From Planctomycetota bacterium (GTDB taxonomy: Bacteria; Planctomycetota; Planctomycetia; Pirellulales; PLA5): a DNA stretch of 36,261 nucleotides. The DNA is taken from contig JAJDEG010000624.1 of assembly GCA_029259895.1 (NCBI GenBank), positions 1 to 36,261 on the forward strand, given 5' to 3'. Position numbers and translations under genes: made by a program. Positions 10,675 to 26,894 of the stretch are shown here, one piece after another; position 1 is the stretch's first letter, and every line of letters begins with the position of its first letter. Below the pieces are notes generated by a model. The model did no database searches and was not told where the DNA came from. It saw only the letters and a list, made by a program, of their open reading frames with translations.

Positions 10675-10846
10675 GTTGCGAAATTGCTAGCGGCTTGTGA
10701 GAATAGATTAGTACGTCCGCGAGAGCGGGCTTCCCCGTAGCGAGAACGCACAGCATACAAGTTTTCGATTTCAATTGCGGCGTTCGCCGCGCCGAAGGTT
10801 CCTCTCGACCGCACGTTCATGCCCTATCTCTCTGGAGCGCATTTCC

Positions 10847-13800
10847 ATGGATCGTTCGCCCGCGCCGCGTGTCCGCAACGCCTCATTCCCGCGTCGCCGT
10901 AAGAGCAACTCGCCGAAGAAACGCAAGTCTCCGGTTCGCGCGCGTTTCGAAGCGCTCGAAGGCCGGCAGATGCTCGACGCGTCGTTTGTGATCAGCGAAA
11001 TCATGCCGCTGAATACGAAGACGGTCCGCGACGAGGATCTTGCATTCTCCGACTGGATCGAGATCCGCAACGACGGCGACATGACCGGCGATCTCGGCGG
11101 ACACTTTCTGACGAATAGCCTGGGAAATCTCACGCAGTGGGCGTTCCCCGCTGGGCAGACGCTGGCTCCGGGCGAACATCTCGTCGTCTTCGCATCCGGC
11201 AAGGATCGCGCGAACGTCGCCGAGCCCCATACGAACTTCACGCTCGATCACACCGGCGGCGACGTGGCGCTGGTCGCGGCGAACGGCACGACGATCGTGT
11301 CGCAATTGGCCGGCTATCCTTCGCTGGTGTCCGATCAGTCGTACGGCCTGATCCGCCGCAGTGCGGACGCCGAGTGGATCGGCGACGCGGCGGCCTCGCG
11401 GATCCTCGTTCCCGCCGGCGGCGCGCTGGGCACGACCTGGACCGGCGGTAGCGAGCCGTTCGACGACACTGCCGGGGCGGGCTGGACGGCAGCAACCGGC
11501 ACGATCGGTTACGACACGGCCAATGGTGCGTCGAGTTTCCTGGTCCAAGTTTGGTATTCGACGGTCGCGATTAACAGCCTGGCCAACTCGGACGCCGCGA
11601 TCGCCGGGCAGAACGTCACGGCAGCGTCGCCGTTTTCTTCGACGCCGCAGATCATCAACTACAAGGACGACCCGGACGCCGGCGACGGCAACTATGGCGG
11701 CGGCGTCGTTTGGCCGGGCAACACGAGCGGCGACAATAACGACTTCGTGATGCGCGCCACGACGACATTTTTCATCCGGCCCGAGCAAGCCGGCATTTGG
11801 ACGTTCGGCTTCAACAGCGACGACGGCGGGCGATTGCGAATCGACGGCAATAACGTCATCGTCGACGACGCCAACCACGCTCCGGCCGATCGACTTGGCA
11901 CCGTGACGCTCGCGGCGGGACTGCATACGCTCGAATATGTGTACTGGGAACGAGGCGGCGGCGCGATAGCCGAGCTGTTCGCCTCGCCCGGCCTCAAGGC
12001 GGCTTGGGACGCCTCGTTTTCATTGGTCGGCAATCCAACCGGCGTTCTCCCGCTGGGCAGTCTCGACGACCTAATCGACACCGACGTCGAAGCGGCGATG
12101 CTCGGCCAAAACGCCACGGCTTACGTCCGCTATCCGTTCAACGTCGCCAGCGCCGATGAAGTGCAGACGATCCAGTTCGACGTGCAGTTCGACGACGGCT
12201 ATGTCGCCTACCTAAACGGCACGCTGGTCGCCTCGTCGAATGCGCCCGGCAGCTTGGCGTTTAATTCCGCCGCATCCGCAAACGCCGGATTGCAGTCCGC
12301 TTCGGTCGACCTTTCCGCGCACATCAATCTACTTCAGGACGGCCAGAATATTCTCGCCGTTCACGGTTTGAATTCCGCCGCCGGCGACGAAGAGTTTTTC
12401 CTCGACATCGGTCTCTCCGCCCGCGAGCTTGGCGCCGCGACGATCGAGACCATCGACCTTCCCACGCCGGGCGCGGCCAACGGCATTCTCGAACCGCTGA
12501 TTACCGAATTCCAGGCCTCGAACCGCGGCACGATCGACGACGAGGACGGCGATTCTTCGGACTGGGTGGAAATCCACAATCCAGGCTCCGTCGACGTGAA
12601 CCTCGCCGGATGGTATCTCACCGACGATCCGCTGACGCCGATGAAATGGCAGTTCCCGTCGACGCGAATCGCCGCCGACGGCTACCTCGTCGTGTTCGCC
12701 TCCGGTAAGGACCGCGCCGTGTTTGGTGAGGAGTTACACACGAACTTCGCCATCAATGCCGACGGCGAATACCTGGCGCTCGTGCGACCCGACGGCACGC
12801 CGGCTTGGGAATATGAACCGGGGGGACAACCGTTTACGCCGCAGTTCGAGGACGTGTCCTATGGCTTGAAGGGGAGCGCCATCACCGCGCCCTCCGACGA
12901 GAACATCGTCGGCCTCCTCGCCTACTGGGATTTCGAGGACGGTCCCGGGTCGAGCACGCTTACCGACCGCAGCGGAAACGGTTGGCACGGCACGCTCGTG
13001 AGCATGGATCCGGCGACCGACTGGATTACCGGCCGTGTCGGCACTCGGGCTCTCGATTTTGATGGCGTCAATGACAACGTCACGACCTTGGCGACTGCCG
13101 CCGATTTTGATATCGAGGGGCGGTCGAAGCGAACGATCTCGGGCTGGGTGCGCGGACCGTCGTTCCTACAGGGTCGCAACGGCGCGATATTTGAAGTCGG
13201 TACTGGCGGCGGCGAGTTCGCCGTGCGCAACGTGGCATCGGCGGGCACGGCTTGGACCGTCGAGCAGGGCAACGCCACGCTGACCTACACCCAGGCGTCG
13301 GCCAATTTGTGGCATCATGTCGCCATCGTTTACAACGGCACCGATACCATCGCGTACGTCAATGGCGTGGAACGGACGCGCAGCACGAACGTCGATCTCA
13401 ACACCGGCGGCGCCGGCACATTCAAATTCGGAATTCGCACCGCGACCAACCAGTTTTTCCGCGGCGGCATCGACGACCTGGCCGTCTGGGACATGGCCCT
13501 CTCGCCGAGCCTCATTTCCAGCTTGGCCAACGAGACGATGACGCCGCTCGACGTGCCGACGGTCAATCGCAACATCGGCACGACGCAGGCCGGGTTCATC
13601 GTTCGTCACGTGAACGCCTCGGCGTCGTTCCCCGGCATCGTCACTGGTGAGATCGGCGGCGACGCCGGCGGCGGCGCGAATCCGTTGGCCGACGCCGACG
13701 CGCTCCTCGGCTTGCCGAGCGGACACGCTGGCATCGCCGGTGACTTCACGTTTAACTACAACCAAATCAACTTCCGCGATCCCGACGGTGGCGGCAGCAG

Positions 13801-16800
13801 CGGTGGTTTCACCGGCGACGAGTCGTTCCCGCTCGACGGGGAAGAGATCGACGAGAACCACTTTGCGGTGCGCGCCACGGCGATTCTCGTCGTGCCGGCG
13901 GGGGCGGCTGGCGAGTTCGTCTTCGGCGTGCATGCCGACGACGGCGCACGTTTGAGAATCGACGGCGCGGACGTCGTGCTCGACAACACGGTCAGCGCGG
14001 CGAGTTTGTCGACCGGCACGGTCACGCTGGCCGCGGGGAACCACACGCTGGAACTCGTCTACTTCGAACGGGACGGCGGGGCCGAGGTCGAATTGATGTA
14101 TAAGTCGCGCAGCGGCGGCAGCGACGACGCGGCGTTCGAGTTGCTCACCGTCGTCAAGAGCGAGCAATTGCCGCCACCTCCGGTGACGGTCTTCGACGCC
14201 GAGAAGGTGTTCTTCACGACGCCCACACCAGGAGCAGCGAACAACGTCGGCGTCGACGTCTTCGTCGGACCGACGAGCTTCTCGATACCGCACGGATTTT
14301 ATTCCACTCCACAGTCGGTGGCCATCGTCAATCTCACGCCGGGCGTGGAGATCTACTACACGCTCAACGGCACCGATCCGTTCACGCGCAACCCGGCCAC
14401 CGGCGTCGTCACGCCGACGGGCACGCTGTACAACGGCACGCCGCTGACGGTCTCGTCGACGACGGCTATTCGCGCGGCGGGCCTTTTCCCGAACGCGGAG
14501 CCGTCGCGGATCGCCACGGCCACGTACTTGTTCACCGCCGACATCGCCGCGCAACCGCGGGGCGTAACACCCTCCGGCTGGCCGAGTTGCGCCGGGAACA
14601 CGATGGTCCACGGCATGGATCAGTCGATCGTCAACAACGCCACGTGGGGGCCGCAGATGGACGCGGCTCTCCAGCAGATTCCGTCGATGTCGATCGTCAC
14701 GGACTTGGCCAATTTATGCGACCCGGCGACCGGCATTTACAATCACGCCGGCAACCGCGGTCGAGCTTGGGAACGGGGGATTTCGCTGGAAATGATCGTG
14801 CCCGAGGGGTACGTCGATCCGGTCGACCCAACGACCGACCAATCGGGCGGTTTTCAGGTCAACGCCGGCTTGCGCATCCGCGGCGGTTTCAGCCGCACGG
14901 CCGGCAACCCAAAGCACGCCTTCCGACTCTTCTTCCGCGGCGAGTACGGCGACTCGAAGCTCAATTTCCCGCTATTCGGCAATGAGGGCACCGATTCGTT
15001 CGACGGAATCGACCTCCGTACGTCGCAGAACTACTCTTGGAACGGGGGATGGCAGAACGGCCCGAACACGTTCATGCGCGATGAACTGTCGCGCGTGCTC
15101 GAGGGCGACTTGGGCCAACCTTATACGCGTGGCCGCTATTACCACCTGTACATCAACGGCACCTACTGGGGCCTGTATCAGACCGAAGAACGGCCCGAGG
15201 CTGACTTCGCGGAGAGTTATTTCGGCGGCCAGGAAGAGGACTACGACGTCGTCAAGAACGACCCGCGTCTGGTCGGCGTCACGGACGGCAACACCGACGC
15301 CTACATGCGGCTATTCGACTATTTCAGCCAGCCGGGCGGCCTGAGCGACGCTAACATGACCGATTACTTCGCAGCCCAGGGGATGAATCCCGACGGCACG
15401 CGAAACTCGGCCTTCGAGCGTCTGCTGGACGTGGAAAACTTGCAGGACCACTTGATTCTGACGTACTACACGTCGGCGGCGGACAGCGCCGGCTCAGAGT
15501 TCACGCGGCCGCAATTAAACAACTGGTTTGCCATTTATAACCGCGAGAATCCCGATGGATTCAAGCACATGGCCCACGACTTCGAGCACGCCTGGGACAC
15601 GGGCGGCGCGGCGGGGGCGAACTTCAACATGGTTTCGCCGTTCGTCAACAACTGCGGCAGTTTCACGACGTTCAATCCGCACTGCCAGCACGAAGTGTTG
15701 ATGGAGACGAATAGCGTTTACGCGCAGAAGTTCGTCGATCGCGTGAGCGAAGTTTTCTTCAACGATGGTCCGCTGTCGACCGACCGCGTTCTTGCCAAAT
15801 TCGACGAGTTGGCTTCGCGGATCGACGTGGCGATAATCGCCGAATCGGCCCGCTGGGGCGATAGTGGGTCGCGCAGTCCCACGTCGTGGGTCAACGCGGT
15901 CGCCACGATGCGCAACTTCGTCACCGCGCGCGGTGGCAGCGGCGGACTCGGCCGCGTCCACGAGGTAATCGATCAACTCCGCGAGGTCGGCTGGTATCCG
16001 CAAGTCGGCGCGCCGACGATCGCACCCAACGGCGGCCACATCGACGATACGACGGAAATTAGCTTGTCGCTACCCGGATCGGTCGTCGTTCAAGTCAACG
16101 ACACGGTCATCGTCAGCGGCGACAACGGCGCCGTCAACGCGAATTATCTCGTGCCCAACGACGCCTCCGTGGACGCTACGTGGATGCAGCCTGGGTTTGA
16201 TGCCTCGTCGTGGGCCACCGGCGCATTGGGGATCGGTTACGACAATGATACGACGTACGTCCCGCACTTCACGACGGACGTCCGCGCGCTGTTCACTGGC
16301 ACGCAGTCGTCGGCTTATATTCGTGTGCCCTTTACGATGTCCAGCACCGCCGTCGACGAGCTCGTGCTGCGGATGAAGTACGACGACGCGTACGTCGCCT
16401 ATCTCAACGGCGTGGAAGTGGCGCGGCGCAATTTCGTCGGCACGCCGGCGTACGATTCATTGGGCACGCTCCACGACGACACGGCCGCCGTCTTGTTCGA
16501 GGACGTCGACATTTCGGCATCCAAGAACCTGCTGGTTTCCGGGCAGAATCTGCTCTCGATCCACGGCATAAACACCAACCTTACCAGCAGCGACTTCTTG
16601 ATCCAGCCGGCACTGGTCTCGCGAGTTACGACGATCATCAATCTCGAAGGCGCGGGCCAAATCTACTACACCACCGACGGCAGCGATCCGCGGGGCGCGA
16701 GCGGCAACCCCGGCGCGACCGCGGTTTCCTACAACGCCATCGAGGATTACCTGACCACGTCGAGCGCAGGCAAGTTCTTCGTGCCGACGGTCGAAGGGGC

Positions 16801-19800
16801 TCAGGCCGGATGGCAAAGTCGCACCTTCGACGACTCCGCATGGACTCCGTCCGTCGGCGCGATCGGTTTCGACACAGGCGCCGCGGAAACGATCGGCGGA
16901 TTCGCCGTTCGCGTGGTGGACACCACGGCCGGCGACATCCCGACGATCGACGTCGCCACGAATATTCTCAACGGCAATACCGCCGGATTCACCATTGGTT
17001 CGGACACGACACGCGCCCAGCCATACGTCAATCATGGCGATGGTGGGAACTTTGCCACGCCGAGCGTGCTGTCCGTTTTTGGAACGCCGGATCGCGAGCA
17101 ATACGTCATTCGCGCCACGGCTGACGTCACTATTCCGGTCGGCACCTATACGGTCGCTGTCGGCAGCGACGACGGATTCCGCTTGACGATTCCCGGCGTG
17201 TCATTCACGTCCAAATTCAACACGAACGGTGACCCGGGCAACGGCACCAATTCGCTAGTATTTAACGCTCCGCGCGGCCACGGCCAGACGGGGGGCGCGT
17301 TCACGGTAAGCGGGTCGCCGCTGACGACGACGGTCCAGCTCGATTTTTACGAACGCGGCGGCGGCGACTCCCTGGAGTTGTCGCTTGCATCAGGTGCGCT
17401 GGCTTCCTTCAATACCACCGCCTTCGGCATCCTCGAGGACGGCCGGCTCGGTTGGTCCGTCAAGACGACCGGCGAGAACGTCAACTACGACCCGACGATA
17501 CAGACCGACGTCGAAGCGGCGATGCTCAATGTCGGTAGTTCGCTGTACGCCCGCTATCCGTTCAGCGTGTCGAACGTGGAGCAGATGCGGAACCTTTCGT
17601 TCTCGATTGCCTACGACGACGGATTCGTGGCCTATCTCAACGGCGTACGGGTCGCGTCTCGCGCGGCGCCCGCCAGTCCGGTATTCGATTCGACGGCAAC
17701 CGCCGTTCGCTCCGACGCCGAGTCGCTGGTCCGCGAGTTCATCGACTTCTCGGGTTTCGTCGGGAACCTAGTCAACGGACAGAACGTGCTGGCCGTGCAT
17801 TTGCTCAACGCCAGCGCGTCGAATCCGGACGCCCTGCTCAGCGTCGAACTCGACGCCACGTTCGGCGGACAGCCGTTTACGCTCACGGACAACGCCCTCC
17901 TCAAGACCCGCGCATTCCTCAACGGCGAGTGGTCGCCGCTGTCGCAAGCCCAATTCATTCTCGGCGAAACGACGTTGGCGGTCAGCGAGATCAACTACAA
18001 TCCCGCGCCGCCAACGGCCGCGGAGATTTCGGCCGGATTCACCAACGCCAACGAGTTCGAGTTCATCGAGTTGATCAACACCGGCGCGCGTAACGTGAAT
18101 CTTGCCGGCGTGGCGTTCAACCAGGGGATCACGTTCGACTTCAACGCCTCGCCGGTGCAGGTGCTTTCGCCCGGCGAGCGGGTCGTGATCGTGGGCAACC
18201 TGCCGGCCTTCTTGCTGCGATACGGCGGCACGTTACCCGGCGGCACGAAGATCGCCGGTACGTATTCCGGCAATTTGAGCAACGGCGGCGAGGGGCTGAC
18301 AATCGTCGACGGCTTGGGCGGCGTGGTTCAGTCGTTCTCGTACGACGACGACTGGTACGGCAACACCGACGGCGTCGGCTTCACGCTCAACATCCGCGAC
18401 ACGCAGGCCGATCCGGCGACGTGGGGACAGCGCGGGTCGTGGCGGCCCAGCAGCTTTTTGCTCGGCACGCCAGGTTCGGCCGATACGTTCGCCGGCGTCC
18501 TTGCTCCAGGAGCGCTGTTGGCCAACGAGATGCTGGCGGCGGCAATCAACCCGGCCGACAAGCGGATCGAGTTGCTCAATCCCACGGCCCAGCCGATCGA
18601 CATTAGCGGCTGGTACATGTCCGACGATCCGGACAACGTCAAGAAGTACCAATTGCCGTCGCTGCCGCCGATCGCGCCGGGCGAATTCCGCGTCCTCAAC
18701 GAGCAAGGCCTGTGGGGATCGGCGTTCTCGCTCTCTAACACGGGCGGTAATCTGATCCTGCACGCCACCAACGGCGCCGCGACGCTCGTCGGGTTCGCCA
18801 TTTATCGCGACTACGGCGCCGCCGACAACGGTGTCGTACACGGGCGGCACGTCAACAGCGACGGCGACACCGACTTCGTGGCCCTCGTATCGTCGACGTT
18901 CGGCGCAACGAACGCGGCCCCGATCGTCGGCCCGATCGTCATCAGCGAAGTCCACTACCATCCGCAGAACGACATGGGCATGCCGCCCGTCGGCGGCGAC
19001 GAGTTCATCGAGTTGGTCAACATCTCGGCGTCGCCCGTATCGCTCAACGGTTGGCAGTTTGCCAACGGCGTGAACTATGTCTTCGGCAGCGTAACGCTCG
19101 CTCCGGGCGAAATCCTCGTGCTCGCGGGAGTTTCCCCGGCGGTGTTCGCGGCGAACGCGAACAACGCGGCCATTCCCGGCGGTGTGCAGGTGCTCGGTCC
19201 GTTCAGCGGATCGCTCGACAACGACGGCGAAAACGTCGAGTTGTTCCGTCCTGGACCGGCCGGTTCTCTGATCCTCGCGGACCGCGTCGACTACAACGAT
19301 GCCGCGCCGTGGCCAACGCTGGCCGACGGCACGGGCCCGTCGCTGAGCAAGACGGCGGCCGCTTCATACGGCAACGATCCGATTAACTGGACCAACGGAC
19401 CGGACGATGGCACGCCCGGGTCGGCGAACGGCTCGACGGTTCCCGGCGACGTGACCGGCGACGGACTGGTCAATGCCGCCGACATCGACGCCGTTCATGT
19501 GGCGATCAATGCCGGTTCGACGAATCTAGCGTTCGATCTCGACGGCAGCACGGTCGTTGACACCGCCGATGCGACGTTCCTGATCGAAACGATCCTCGGC
19601 ACTCGCCGGGGCGACGCCAACCTCGACCGCTCGGTCAACCGGACCGATGCGTCGATCGTGGCCCGCAACTACGGCCATGCTGGAACGCCGGCGTGGGCCA
19701 AGGGCGACTTCAACGGCGATGGTAATGTCGGTGTCGCCGACGTGGCGATCGCTCAGGCGAACATGGGCTTCGTGGCCCCGCCGTCGCCGGCTGCCTCGCC

Positions 19801-20101
19801 CAGTCCATCGGCCCCGGCGGCCGTGATTGCCGCGGCAGGCGATGGTGCTTCCCGAGTGGCGACGCGCCGTGCGAGCGCTGCCGTCCGAGTGGCCGCCCCA
19901 GCGGCAAGTGGCGTCGACCAGGTGCTGGCCAGCGTCGCCCGCGAGCGGTCGGGCGATCAAGCCCGCAGCGAATCTACGGCGAACGGCGGCGGGCTGCGGA
20001 TTCGCGCGGCTCGCCATAGGGCACCCCTTTCGCAGGCGAGCCTCGGCGACGTCGACCTTTCCGCAATCGCCAGTGAAGTACGACGCATTCGCCGGTCGTA
20101 G
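10847..20101 (+). CDS. Giant surface protein: LTD, PA14-like, LamG, CotH, dockerin-like
   Basis: A 3084-residue exported multidomain protein. The ATG at 10847 follows GGAG at 10834-10837 (9 nt spacing); a more upstream ATG lacks this. A basic N-terminus leads to the planctomycete surface motif FEALEGRQMLDA. In order: LTD (47-165); half a beta-sandwich interrupted by a PA14-like module (229-383), then its second half (403-526); LTD 2 (548-670); LamG-like (688-891); PA14-like (916-1088); chitobiase C-terminal-like (1136-1233); CotH-kinase-like (1280-1670) with the segment AHDFEHAWD; two more beta-sandwich copies (about 1757-1928 and 1965-2340), the last again holding a PA14-like insert; three LTDs (2378-2865); and a dockerin-like region (2866-2975) with repeated DxNxDG-type calcium loops. 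The tail is Ala/Pro/Arg-rich. CotH-family proteins can phosphorylate secreted proteins; activity here is not proven. A terminator follows. Confidence 0.88.
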   Translation: MDRSPAPRVRNASFPRRRKSNSPKKRKSPVRARFEALEGRQMLDASFVISEIMPLNTKTVRDEDLAFSDWIEIRNDGDMTGDLGGHFLTNSLGNLTQWAFPAGQTLAPGEHLVVFASGKDRANVAEPHTNFTLDHTGGDVALVAANGTTIVSQLAGYPSLVSDQSYGLIRRSADAEWIGDAAASRILVPAGGALGTTWTGGSEPFDDTAGAGWTAATGTIGYDTANGASSFLVQVWYSTVAINSLANSDAAIAGQNVTAASPFSSTPQIINYKDDPDAGDGNYGGGVVWPGNTSGDNNDFVMRATTTFFIRPEQAGIWTFGFNSDDGGRLRIDGNNVIVDDANHAPADRLGTVTLAAGLHTLEYVYWERGGGAIAELFASPGLKAAWDASFSLVGNPTGVLPLGSLDDLIDTDVEAAMLGQNATAYVRYPFNVASADEVQTIQFDVQFDDGYVAYLNGTLVASSNAPGSLAFNSAASANAGLQSASVDLSAHINLLQDGQNILAVHGLNSAAGDEEFFLDIGLSARELGAATIETIDLPTPGAANGILEPLITEFQASNRGTIDDEDGDSSDWVEIHNPGSVDVNLAGWYLTDDPLTPMKWQFPSTRIAADGYLVVFASGKDRAVFGEELHTNFAINADGEYLALVRPDGTPAWEYEPGGQPFTPQFEDVSYGLKGSAITAPSDENIVGLLAYWDFEDGPGSSTLTDRSGNGWHGTLVSMDPATDWITGRVGTRALDFDGVNDNVTTLATAADFDIEGRSKRTISGWVRGPSFLQGRNGAIFEVGTGGGEFAVRNVASAGTAWTVEQGNATLTYTQASANLWHHVAIVYNGTDTIAYVNGVERTRSTNVDLNTGGAGTFKFGIRTATNQFFRGGIDDLAVWDMALSPSLISSLANETMTPLDVPTVNRNIGTTQAGFIVRHVNASASFPGIVTGEIGGDAGGGANPLADADALLGLPSGHAGIAGDFTFNYNQINFRDPDGGGSSGGFTGDESFPLDGEEIDENHFAVRATAILVVPAGAAGEFVFGVHADDGARLRIDGADVVLDNTVSAASLSTGTVTLAAGNHTLELVYFERDGGAEVELMYKSRSGGSDDAAFELLTVVKSEQLPPPPVTVFDAEKVFFTTPTPGAANNVGVDVFVGPTSFSIPHGFYSTPQSVAIVNLTPGVEIYYTLNGTDPFTRNPATGVVTPTGTLYNGTPLTVSSTTAIRAAGLFPNAEPSRIATATYLFTADIAAQPRGVTPSGWPSCAGNTMVHGMDQSIVNNATWGPQMDAALQQIPSMSIVTDLANLCDPATGIYNHAGNRGRAWERGISLEMIVPEGYVDPVDPTTDQSGGFQVNAGLRIRGGFSRTAGNPKHAFRLFFRGEYGDSKLNFPLFGNEGTDSFDGIDLRTSQNYSWNGGWQNGPNTFMRDELSRVLEGDLGQPYTRGRYYHLYINGTYWGLYQTEERPEADFAESYFGGQEEDYDVVKNDPRLVGVTDGNTDAYMRLFDYFSQPGGLSDANMTDYFAAQGMNPDGTRNSAFERLLDVENLQDHLILTYYTSAADSAGSEFTRPQLNNWFAIYNRENPDGFKHMAHDFEHAWDTGGAAGANFNMVSPFVNNCGSFTTFNPHCQHEVLMETNSVYAQKFVDRVSEVFFNDGPLSTDRVLAKFDELASRIDVAIIAESARWGDSGSRSPTSWVNAVATMRNFVTARGGSGGLGRVHEVIDQLREVGWYPQVGAPTIAPNGGHIDDTTEISLSLPGSVVVQVNDTVIVSGDNGAVNANYLVPNDASVDATWMQPGFDASSWATGALGIGYDNDTTYVPHFTTDVRALFTGTQSSAYIRVPFTMSSTAVDELVLRMKYDDAYVAYLNGVEVARRNFVGTPAYDSLGTLHDDTAAVLFEDVDISASKNLLVSGQNLLSIHGINTNLTSSDFLIQPALVSRVTTIINLEGAGQIYYTTDGSDPRGASGNPGATAVSYNAIEDYLTTSSAGKFFVPTVEGAQAGWQSRTFDDSAWTPSVGAIGFDTGAAETIGGFAVRVVDTTAGDIPTIDVATNILNGNTAGFTIGSDTTRAQPYVNHGDGGNFATPSVLSVFGTPDREQYVIRATADVTIPVGTYTVAVGSDDGFRLTIPGVSFTSKFNTNGDPGNGTNSLVFNAPRGHGQTGGAFTVSGSPLTTTVQLDFYERGGGDSLELSLASGALASFNTTAFGILEDGRLGWSVKTTGENVNYDPTIQTDVEAAMLNVGSSLYARYPFSVSNVEQMRNLSFSIAYDDGFVAYLNGVRVASRAAPASPVFDSTATAVRSDAESLVREFIDFSGFVGNLVNGQNVLAVHLLNASASNPDALLSVELDATFGGQPFTLTDNALLKTRAFLNGEWSPLSQAQFILGETTLAVSEINYNPAPPTAAEISAGFTNANEFEFIELINTGARNVNLAGVAFNQGITFDFNASPVQVLSPGERVVIVGNLPAFLLRYGGTLPGGTKIAGTYSGNLSNGGEGLTIVDGLGGVVQSFSYDDDWYGNTDGVGFTLNIRDTQADPATWGQRGSWRPSSFLLGTPGSADTFAGVLAPGALLANEMLAAAINPADKRIELLNPTAQPIDISGWYMSDDPDNVKKYQLPSLPPIAPGEFRVLNEQGLWGSAFSLSNTGGNLILHATNGAATLVGFAIYRDYGAADNGVVHGRHVNSDGDTDFVALVSSTFGATNAAPIVGPIVISEVHYHPQNDMGMPPVGGDEFIELVNISASPVSLNGWQFANGVNYVFGSVTLAPGEILVLAGVSPAVFAANANNAAIPGGVQVLGPFSGSLDNDGENVELFRPGPAGSLILADRVDYNDAAPWPTLADGTGPSLSKTAAASYGNDPINWTNGPDDGTPGSANGSTVPGDVTGDGLVNAADIDAVHVAINAGSTNLAFDLDGSTVVDTADATFLIETILGTRRGDANLDRSVNRTDASIVARNYGHAGTPAWAKGDFNGDGNVGVADVAIAQANMGFVAPPSPAASPSPSAPAAVIAAAGDGASRVATRRASAAVRVAAPAASGVDQVLASVARERSGDQARSESTANGGGLRIRAARHRAPLSQASLGDVDLSAIASEVRRIRRS

Positions 20102-25838: not shown

Positions 25839-26894
25839 ATGCGACTCTTCGGCAAGAAAAAACGACTCACCGACTACGCAAGCTGCGCGGGCTGAGCGGG
25901 CAAGCTTCCCCAAGAGGGGACCGCACAGGTTGTGCGGGGACTGCCTAAGTTCGCCGACGAAAATCTCATCGTCGGAACCGAAGGGTTCAGCGATGCGAGC
26001 GTGTATCGATTGCGCGATGATCTATACATCGTCCAGTCGCTCGACTTTTTCCCTCCGCTCGTCGACGATCCGTATTTATTCGGTCAAATCGCAGCGGCCA
26101 ATTCGCTTTCCGATATCTACGCGATGGGCGCACGGCCCATCACCGCGCTGAACATCGTCGGATTCCCCGACGACCAGCTCTCGCTCGACGTGCTGTCCGA
26201 AATCCTCAAAGGCGGCGCCGAAAAGGTCATGGAAGCTGGTGCCGTCATCGCCGGCGGACACACCGTCCGCGATGTCGAGATTAAGTACGGACTCTCCGCC
26301 ACCGGCGTCGTCGCGCCGGATCGACTCCTCACGAACCAAAAGGCCCAGCCCGGCGACCTGCTCGTCCTCACCAAAGCCCTCGGCACCGGTTTCGTCACCA
26401 CGGCCAACAAAGCCGGCCGCTGCCCCGAAGACGTCCTCGCCGCCGCTTCCGCCAGCATGGCCATGCTCAATCGGGCCGCCGCCGAAGCCGCCGCCGCGCA
26501 CGCCGCACACGCCGCCACCGACATCACCGGCTTCGGGCTCGCCGGACACGCGGGCGAAATGGCCGAGTCCAGCGGCGTCACCTGCGTCATTGAACTCGCC
26601 AAGCTCCCATTGCTCCCTGGCGTCGCCGAACTCGCTAGGGCCGGCAACCAAACGCGAGCCAGTGCCAGCAACCGCGCCTTCGCCGCACCCAATACGCTCA
26701 TCCAGGCCGGCTGCGACGAACTGCGCGTCGAGGTCGCCTTCGACGCTCAAACCTCCGGTGGCCTGCTTCTCGCCGTCGCGCCAGAAAATGCCGCTGCTCT
26801 CGTCGACCACGCTCGCTCTCTCGGTGCGACGGCCACGACGATCGTCGGCCACGTCGACCAACGCCGCGAGAAGTCGCTCGTCCTTGTGCCGTAG
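25839..26894 (+). CDS. selD: Selenide, water dikinase with selenocysteine (UGA codon 19)
   Basis: SelD makes selenophosphate from selenide and ATP for selenocysteine and selenouridine synthesis. Read from the ATG at 25839 the frame is MRLFGKKKRLTDYASCAG, then an in-frame TGA (25893-25895), then AGKLPQEGTAQVVRGLPKF and the clear SelD body. The pattern U-A-G-K matches the catalytic Cys17-x-x-Lys20 of E. coli SelD, giving Sec19 and K22. Selenocysteine at this site is known in many SelD proteins. Downstream are SLDFFPPLVDDPYLFGQIAA, SDIYAMGARPITALNI, VIAGGHTVRD, ATDITGFGLAGHAGEMA and AQTSGGLL. With the recoded codon the protein has 351 residues, the normal size. A conventional call would start at the GTG at 25932 and lose the catalytic segment. 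A SECIS-like hairpin follows the TGA. selA, selB and selC are not in this window. Confidence 0.88.
25921..25937 (+). promoter_or_regulatory. SECIS-like hairpin in selD
   Basis: A perfect 6-bp stem, CCGCAC (25921-25926) with GTGCGG (25932-25937), closes the loop AGGTT. The loop resembles the AGGUCU loop of the E. coli fdhF SECIS, with G at the second position. About 32 nt lie between the TGA (25893-25895) and the first loop G, within the range known for bacterial SECIS elements. A second small hairpin (TCCCC/GGGGA, loop AAGA, 25907-25920) sits between. SelB would bind here to recode UGA. Confidence 0.65.

Follow-up and report, generated by a model that had tools for sequence, protein, structure and literature searches.

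Does a UGA codon near the start of selD, the gene for selenophosphate synthetase (selenide, water dikinase), interrupt the gene, or is it read as selenocysteine (Sec)? The gene lies on a 36,261-nucleotide stretch of DNA, here called the window, which is contig 584 (JAJDEG010000624.1) of the draft genome of a Planctomycetota bacterium (GCA_029259895.1; 7.19 Mb in 791 contigs, 92.75% complete). Judged from sequence, it is almost certain that this selD encodes a Sec-containing selenophosphate synthetase whose UGA is decoded by SelB via a selenocysteine insertion sequence (SECIS) hairpin. An initial annotation had proposed that SelD is itself a selenoprotein, and this is very probably so, given SelB, tRNA-Sec, other UGA-containing redox genes, and a TGA and hairpin that are both conserved.

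The selD frame and its catalytic loop

The selD frame (25839-26894, forward strand) begins with ATG at 25839, passes through TGA at 25893-25895, and ends with TAG at 26892-26894. It is otherwise open, so that a single UGA stands in a predicted protein of 351 residues with Sec at position 19. A frame check thereby confirmed the upstream extension that the initial annotation had drawn, while a plain open reading frame caller puts the start at GTG 25932 and cuts off the active-site loop. The whole window protein scores 364.8 bits against the TIGR00476 selD model (cut-off 125) and aligns with the Escherichia coli SelD chain (PDB 3u0o) over residues 9-342, starting at R9 (E=1.1e-64). The two are alike in family and length, and the core motifs D-x-T-G-F-G and QTSGG are kept. 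Because U19 falls on E. coli Cys17 and K22 on Lys20, the gene has the Cys or Sec and the Lys that define the SelD catalytic loop, and the proposal that Sec19-x-x-Lys22 takes the place of Cys17-x-x-Lys20 was borne out. The loop itself, C16-A-G-Sec19-A-G-K22 (25884-25904, forward strand; CxxU, then Lys), is aligned with G-A-G-C17-G-C19-K20. Whereas E. coli SelD has Cys17 and Cys19, the window SelD has Sec19 and Gly21, with a Cys three residues ahead of the Sec and Gly replacing Cys19.

The UGA codon (25893-25895, forward strand) sits where homologues hold Cys, in E. coli SelD as well as in four orthologues. Each of eight orthologues from the same order (62-83% identity) has one TGA at the identical position, and across the order's nine orthologues the loop, K22 included, is invariant; conservation over residues 9-32 is among the highest in the protein. 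A scan that took in genomes of 84,980 species returned 80 loci, all but two of them in records titled Planctomycetota or its groups, the exceptions being one 'Deltaproteobacteria' and one bacterium metagenome-assembled genome (MAG). Close relatives in named collections are Planctomycetota, mostly Pirellulales/Pirellulaceae, and the nearest is a genus-mate, 'Planctomycetota bacterium isolate PLA5'; by these relatives the bacterium belongs to the order Pirellulales. Once duplicates were removed, 82 distinct members carried the CAG[U/C]AGK loop, with TGA in 78 and a Cys codon in 4. In a maximum-likelihood tree these members form one supported clade, to which the order's other SelD do not belong. 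Within it, the four Cys forms, from Aquisphaera, Singulisphaera, and two MAGs, branch among Sec forms inside one Isosphaeraceae-centred lineage and are therefore best read as later, natural Sec-to-Cys changes. The 'Deltaproteobacteria' MAG (locus L151) has a planctomycete-type Sec-SelD that is nested in the planctomycete clade, reflecting either transfer or mis-binning.

Of prokaryotic SelD, 19% are reported to contain selenocysteine, in every case at this catalytic position (PMC4561486), in agreement with the remark in the initial annotation that such SelD is known in other lineages. Sec-SelD of bacteria and archaea and animal SEPHS2/SPS2 all hold Sec at the same place in the catalytic N-terminal loop as the window SelD, which differs from other Sec-SelD in its C-A-G-U-A-G-K loop and its separate Planctomycetota clade. 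Planctomycete selenoproteins have been reported in a paper whose main text names selD once, as a pathway gene (PMC4807772). Our literature search, which left most subscription journals outside its reach, turned up neither a description of this planctomycete branch nor a two-hairpin bacterial SECIS. The phenomenon of Sec-SelD is thus known; its phylum-wide branch here and the extra hairpin discussed below appear to be undescribed. The branch matters for annotation, as a UGA-containing selD is easily recorded as truncated. A whole phylum-wide branch is at risk of being mis-called in this way, and would then falsely resemble SelD without a catalytic loop.

Relatives also encode fusions of NADH dehydrogenase with SelD. 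Their C-A-G-C-G-S-K loop has the same CxxC/CxxU spacing as the window SelD, but it contains Cys rather than Sec, and the proteins fall on a distant branch of the tree. Their long open frames of about 590-840 amino acids suggest an N-terminal fusion. Viral contigs yielded one distant Cys-SelD and nothing else of SelD. No gene neighbourhood of selD is common across the family, the neighbours varying by lineage.

Probable decoding of the UGA

The signal that would direct decoding is a hairpin, P2, with the sequence CCGCAC-AGGUU-GUGCGG (25921-25937, forward strand). It is 17 nt long, lies 26-42 nt past the UGA, and can also be drawn with 7 bp and the loop GGU; the 6-bp stem and AGGUU loop are located where the initial annotation had put them. 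The published rule for bacterial SECIS elements asks for a stem of 4-16 bp, a loop of 3-9 nt with a G in its first two positions, a distance of 16-37 nt from the UGA, and a minimum free energy of at most -7.5 kcal/mol (PMC13188914). In predicted folds, the loop rule holds for the window gene and for 81 of 81 Sec-SelD examined, and the 39-nt stretch of the window gene, with P2 and a second, proximal hairpin (P1) together, folds at -18.1 kcal/mol. The apical CAGGU is common to P2 and the E. coli fdhF SECIS, the fdhF stretch having been checked in E. coli genomes. Since all 81 Sec-SelD fit the published rule and the apical CAGGU matches fdhF, P2 is an ordinary bacterial SECIS. It differs from the fdhF element in lying about 14 nt further from the UGA, with P1 occupying the gap. 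Rfam held nothing relevant in the window and nothing above threshold at the selD loci.

Conservation of P2 goes beyond what the protein demands. A general folding test on the 39-nt stretch was too blunt (median p 0.165), and we relied instead on a sliding profile, described below, and on a shuffle test in which the protein was kept, codons were drawn from the same gene, and the stem was scored at a fixed apical place. The test finds a P2 stem of 5 bp or more in 77 of the 78 Sec members, where synonymous shuffling predicts 11.8; shuffled versions of the window gene reach an equal stem length at that place in 1 case out of 300. Compensatory changes were tallied separately for two sub-groups with different registers, and in both the share of paired cells exceeds that of slid controls. 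Where CTG or TTG follows the loop, 91.9% of cells are paired, and both sides have changed in 20 cells versus 7.9 in shuffles; with the partner slid, just 0-4 cells have both sides changed. The window's own GCA...GTG sub-group has 92.8% of cells paired and 11 double-changed cells versus 6.4 in shuffles, and constitutes weaker evidence, as four of its six pairs are invariant. The choice of Ala codon, GCA or GCG, goes with that of the Val or Leu codon across the hairpin axis, GCA occurring with GTG 27 times and with CTG never. Stems at the P2 site in the four Cys members measure 6, 3, 3, and 2 bp.

In these Cys-SelD loci (L128, L136, L141, and L157) the SECIS hairpin has been lost in three, and the loop GG is gone in the fourth. 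Natural Sec-to-Cys changes among so many orthologues make the family a good test bed for the requirements of a bacterial SECIS.

Much of the machinery for Sec insertion is present in the same genome. SelB (C177:389-2281) scores 368 bits against a cut-off of 242 and has its winged-helix domain, and a tRNA-Sec with a UCA anticodon lies at C523:3027-3122. Other UGA-containing genes, whose presence the initial annotation had suggested as a check, were also found: a second SelD (C532) that is 46% identical to the first, a SelL-related redox protein with the motif HLAULPC (C226; 182 bits versus 120), and a ResA-like protein with FASWUAGC (C456), which falls under the cut-off of the WAxxUGC model; the latter two are likely selenoproteins. 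The initial annotation had further implied that the organism has SelA, SelB, and tRNA-Sec, and of these only SelA is missing from the draft assembly.

Several points weigh against decoding as Sec. Two models failed to find selA in the 92.75% complete assembly, and a comparison of the flanks of the sister selA with the assembly revealed no clear contig break to explain the missing gene. P1 is kept in all four Cys forms, leaving its tie to Sec insertion unproven, and the support as a whole is sequence inference. The absence of selA gives some footing to a reading in which the Sec pathway is broken and the UGA is recoded as another amino acid or simply read through. We consider this very improbable: SelB and tRNA-Sec are intact, at least three other UGA-containing genes keep open frames, and a genome of the same genus has selA. 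A selA scoring 513 bits is present in that genus-mate, and every one of the order's seven other genomes with this SelD has the gene as well; SepSecS, as a substitute for SelA, is absent. We infer that selA lies in the unassembled part of the genome. Reassignment of UGA as a sense codon was rejected, as TGA ends at least two ordinary genes of the window and the tRNA is tRNA-Sec.

A sequencing or assembly error that turned a Cys codon (TGC or TGT) into TGA is scarcely credible. The draft is fragmented into 791 contigs, and TGC needs only one base change to become TGA, but the genus-mate and 70-odd other independently assembled genomes have TGA at the same place, which excludes the error at 25893-25895 that the initial annotation had named as fatal to its proposal. 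The hairpin argues the same way: its conservation exceeds what codon constraint requires, and three of the four Cys forms have lost it. A pseudogene or a truncated product starting at GTG 25932 with the upstream part unused is a reading with next to no chance of being right. It matches the output of a plain open reading frame caller, but would yield a shortened form without the catalytic loop, although residues 9-32 are so well conserved and the loop is invariant in the order.

If the UGA is decoded as Sec, SelB bound to P2 just downstream would supply Sec-tRNA(Sec) for the UGA codon 19, and in the mobile N-terminal loop Sec19 would occupy the place of the catalytic cysteine. Together with Lys22 and the ATP-binding core, it is predicted to make selenophosphate from selenide and ATP. 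SelA, presumably present, would spend this selenophosphate on more Sec-tRNA, for SelD itself and a few thioredoxin-fold selenoproteins. Two usual reasons for keeping SelD were sought: ybbB (2-selenouridine synthase) had no match above cut-off in any of 58 relatives, which gave weak fragments only, and none of the genome's many formate dehydrogenase paralogues carries UGA where Sec would stand, setting aside a fragment of the C-terminal part that contains one TGA. Because neither was found, the users of selenophosphate are probably thioredoxin-fold selenoproteins (SelL-like and thioredoxin-like).

The proximal hairpin P1

Between the UGA and P2 the message can form the second hairpin, P1, with the sequence UCCCC-AAGA-GGGGA (25907-25920, forward strand). 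Any role for it is more tentative. In the sliding profile, local folding energy was compared with that of synonymous shuffles in 78 genes, at 30 positions over the first 170 nt, with shared ancestry uncorrected. Two clear peaks emerged: P2 gives a mean z of -1.96, and nt 6-30 from the UGA, corresponding to P1, give -1.35. At the P1 peak, 69% of genes fall below z -1; the remaining positions range from about -0.6 to +0.3, save one profile window that overlaps P2.

P1 may compact the long spacer to the span that usually separates UGA and SECIS, an idea that draws on genes with a SECIS loop about 20 nt from the UGA, which have a single hairpin or mostly lack P1. Among SelD genes in plasmid records, the Sec-SelD of Terrisporobacter has P1 and P2, and those of Acetoanaerobium and Peptoclostridium lack P1 and form one hairpin only, the loop of which is about 20 nt away from the UGA. 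The peroxiredoxin genes of the order that contain a UGA likewise place their SECIS-like loop roughly 20 nt from it, mostly without P1. By folding the spacer, P1 may give a SECIS loop that is 31-32 nt from the UGA the shorter effective distance of fdhF and of these peroxiredoxins. Put generally, Sec-SelD mRNAs of Planctomycetota and some other bacteria would carry a two-hairpin SECIS, in which a P1 of variable sequence lets the loop at 31-32 nt reach the effective distance of single-hairpin elements, such as the clostridial genes at about 20 nt that have no P1. We regard this proposal as somewhat more apt to be wrong than right.

P1 might instead be a by-product of codon or amino-acid constraint, standing outside the recoding signal, a serious contender that falls a little short of being probable. 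Such a by-product could be retained in the four Cys forms and could differ in register among lineages, as P1 does, and single-gene p-values are weak (median 0.115, mostly non-significant). It fits less well with a profile peak that is the second largest of the 30 positions scanned, or with stems of at least 4 bp in 73 of 78 genes versus 44 expected, formed in several registers from widely differing codons. There is no surplus of P1 in nine Cys-SelD that belong to other branches (3.89 versus 3.69 bp), and P1 is present in the Terrisporobacter Sec-SelD and in both Sec-SelD types of this genome, the order's other type having GGUCC-UGA-GGACC. The suggestion in the initial annotation that the SECIS form here may be new does not hold for P2, and may hold for P1, which that annotation did not mention. 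P1 could become a variant feature of the SECIS if tested; if it is real, it would account for the working of SECIS elements whose distances from the UGA differ widely.

Other UGA-containing genes and the window

Run against this genome and its sister, a covariance model of the SECIS hairpin picked up the second selD and no further selenoprotein. UGA-containing genes of the AhpC/TSA fold, the SelL-related and ResA-like genes above among them, occur in this genome (L195, G000:C226; L196, G000:C456) and in relatives (L197-L206 complete the set). They comprise SelL-related (ULPC), ResA-like (WUAGC), and peroxiredoxin (GGUTxxC) types, with a hairpin predicted after each. The genus-mate has a thioredoxin-like protein (L208, G001:C119) whose frame holds two UGAs at a spacing of three codons (YVULTURRQ), possibly a double-Sec UxxU protein.

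The second Sec-SelD (L068, G000:C532, 554-3494; L069, G022:C1, 2271-5250) stands in a cassette with a LysR regulator and a TauE/SafE permease, beside metal-efflux genes. The regulator is closest to a selenium-metabolism LysR model, above its cut-off in L069 and below it in L068, and the permease is a candidate selenium transporter. In relative G022, three near-identical copies occur on different contigs, and the arrangement suggests a mobile selenium cassette. Elsewhere in the window, positions 10775-20101 form a single open frame of 3108 codons.
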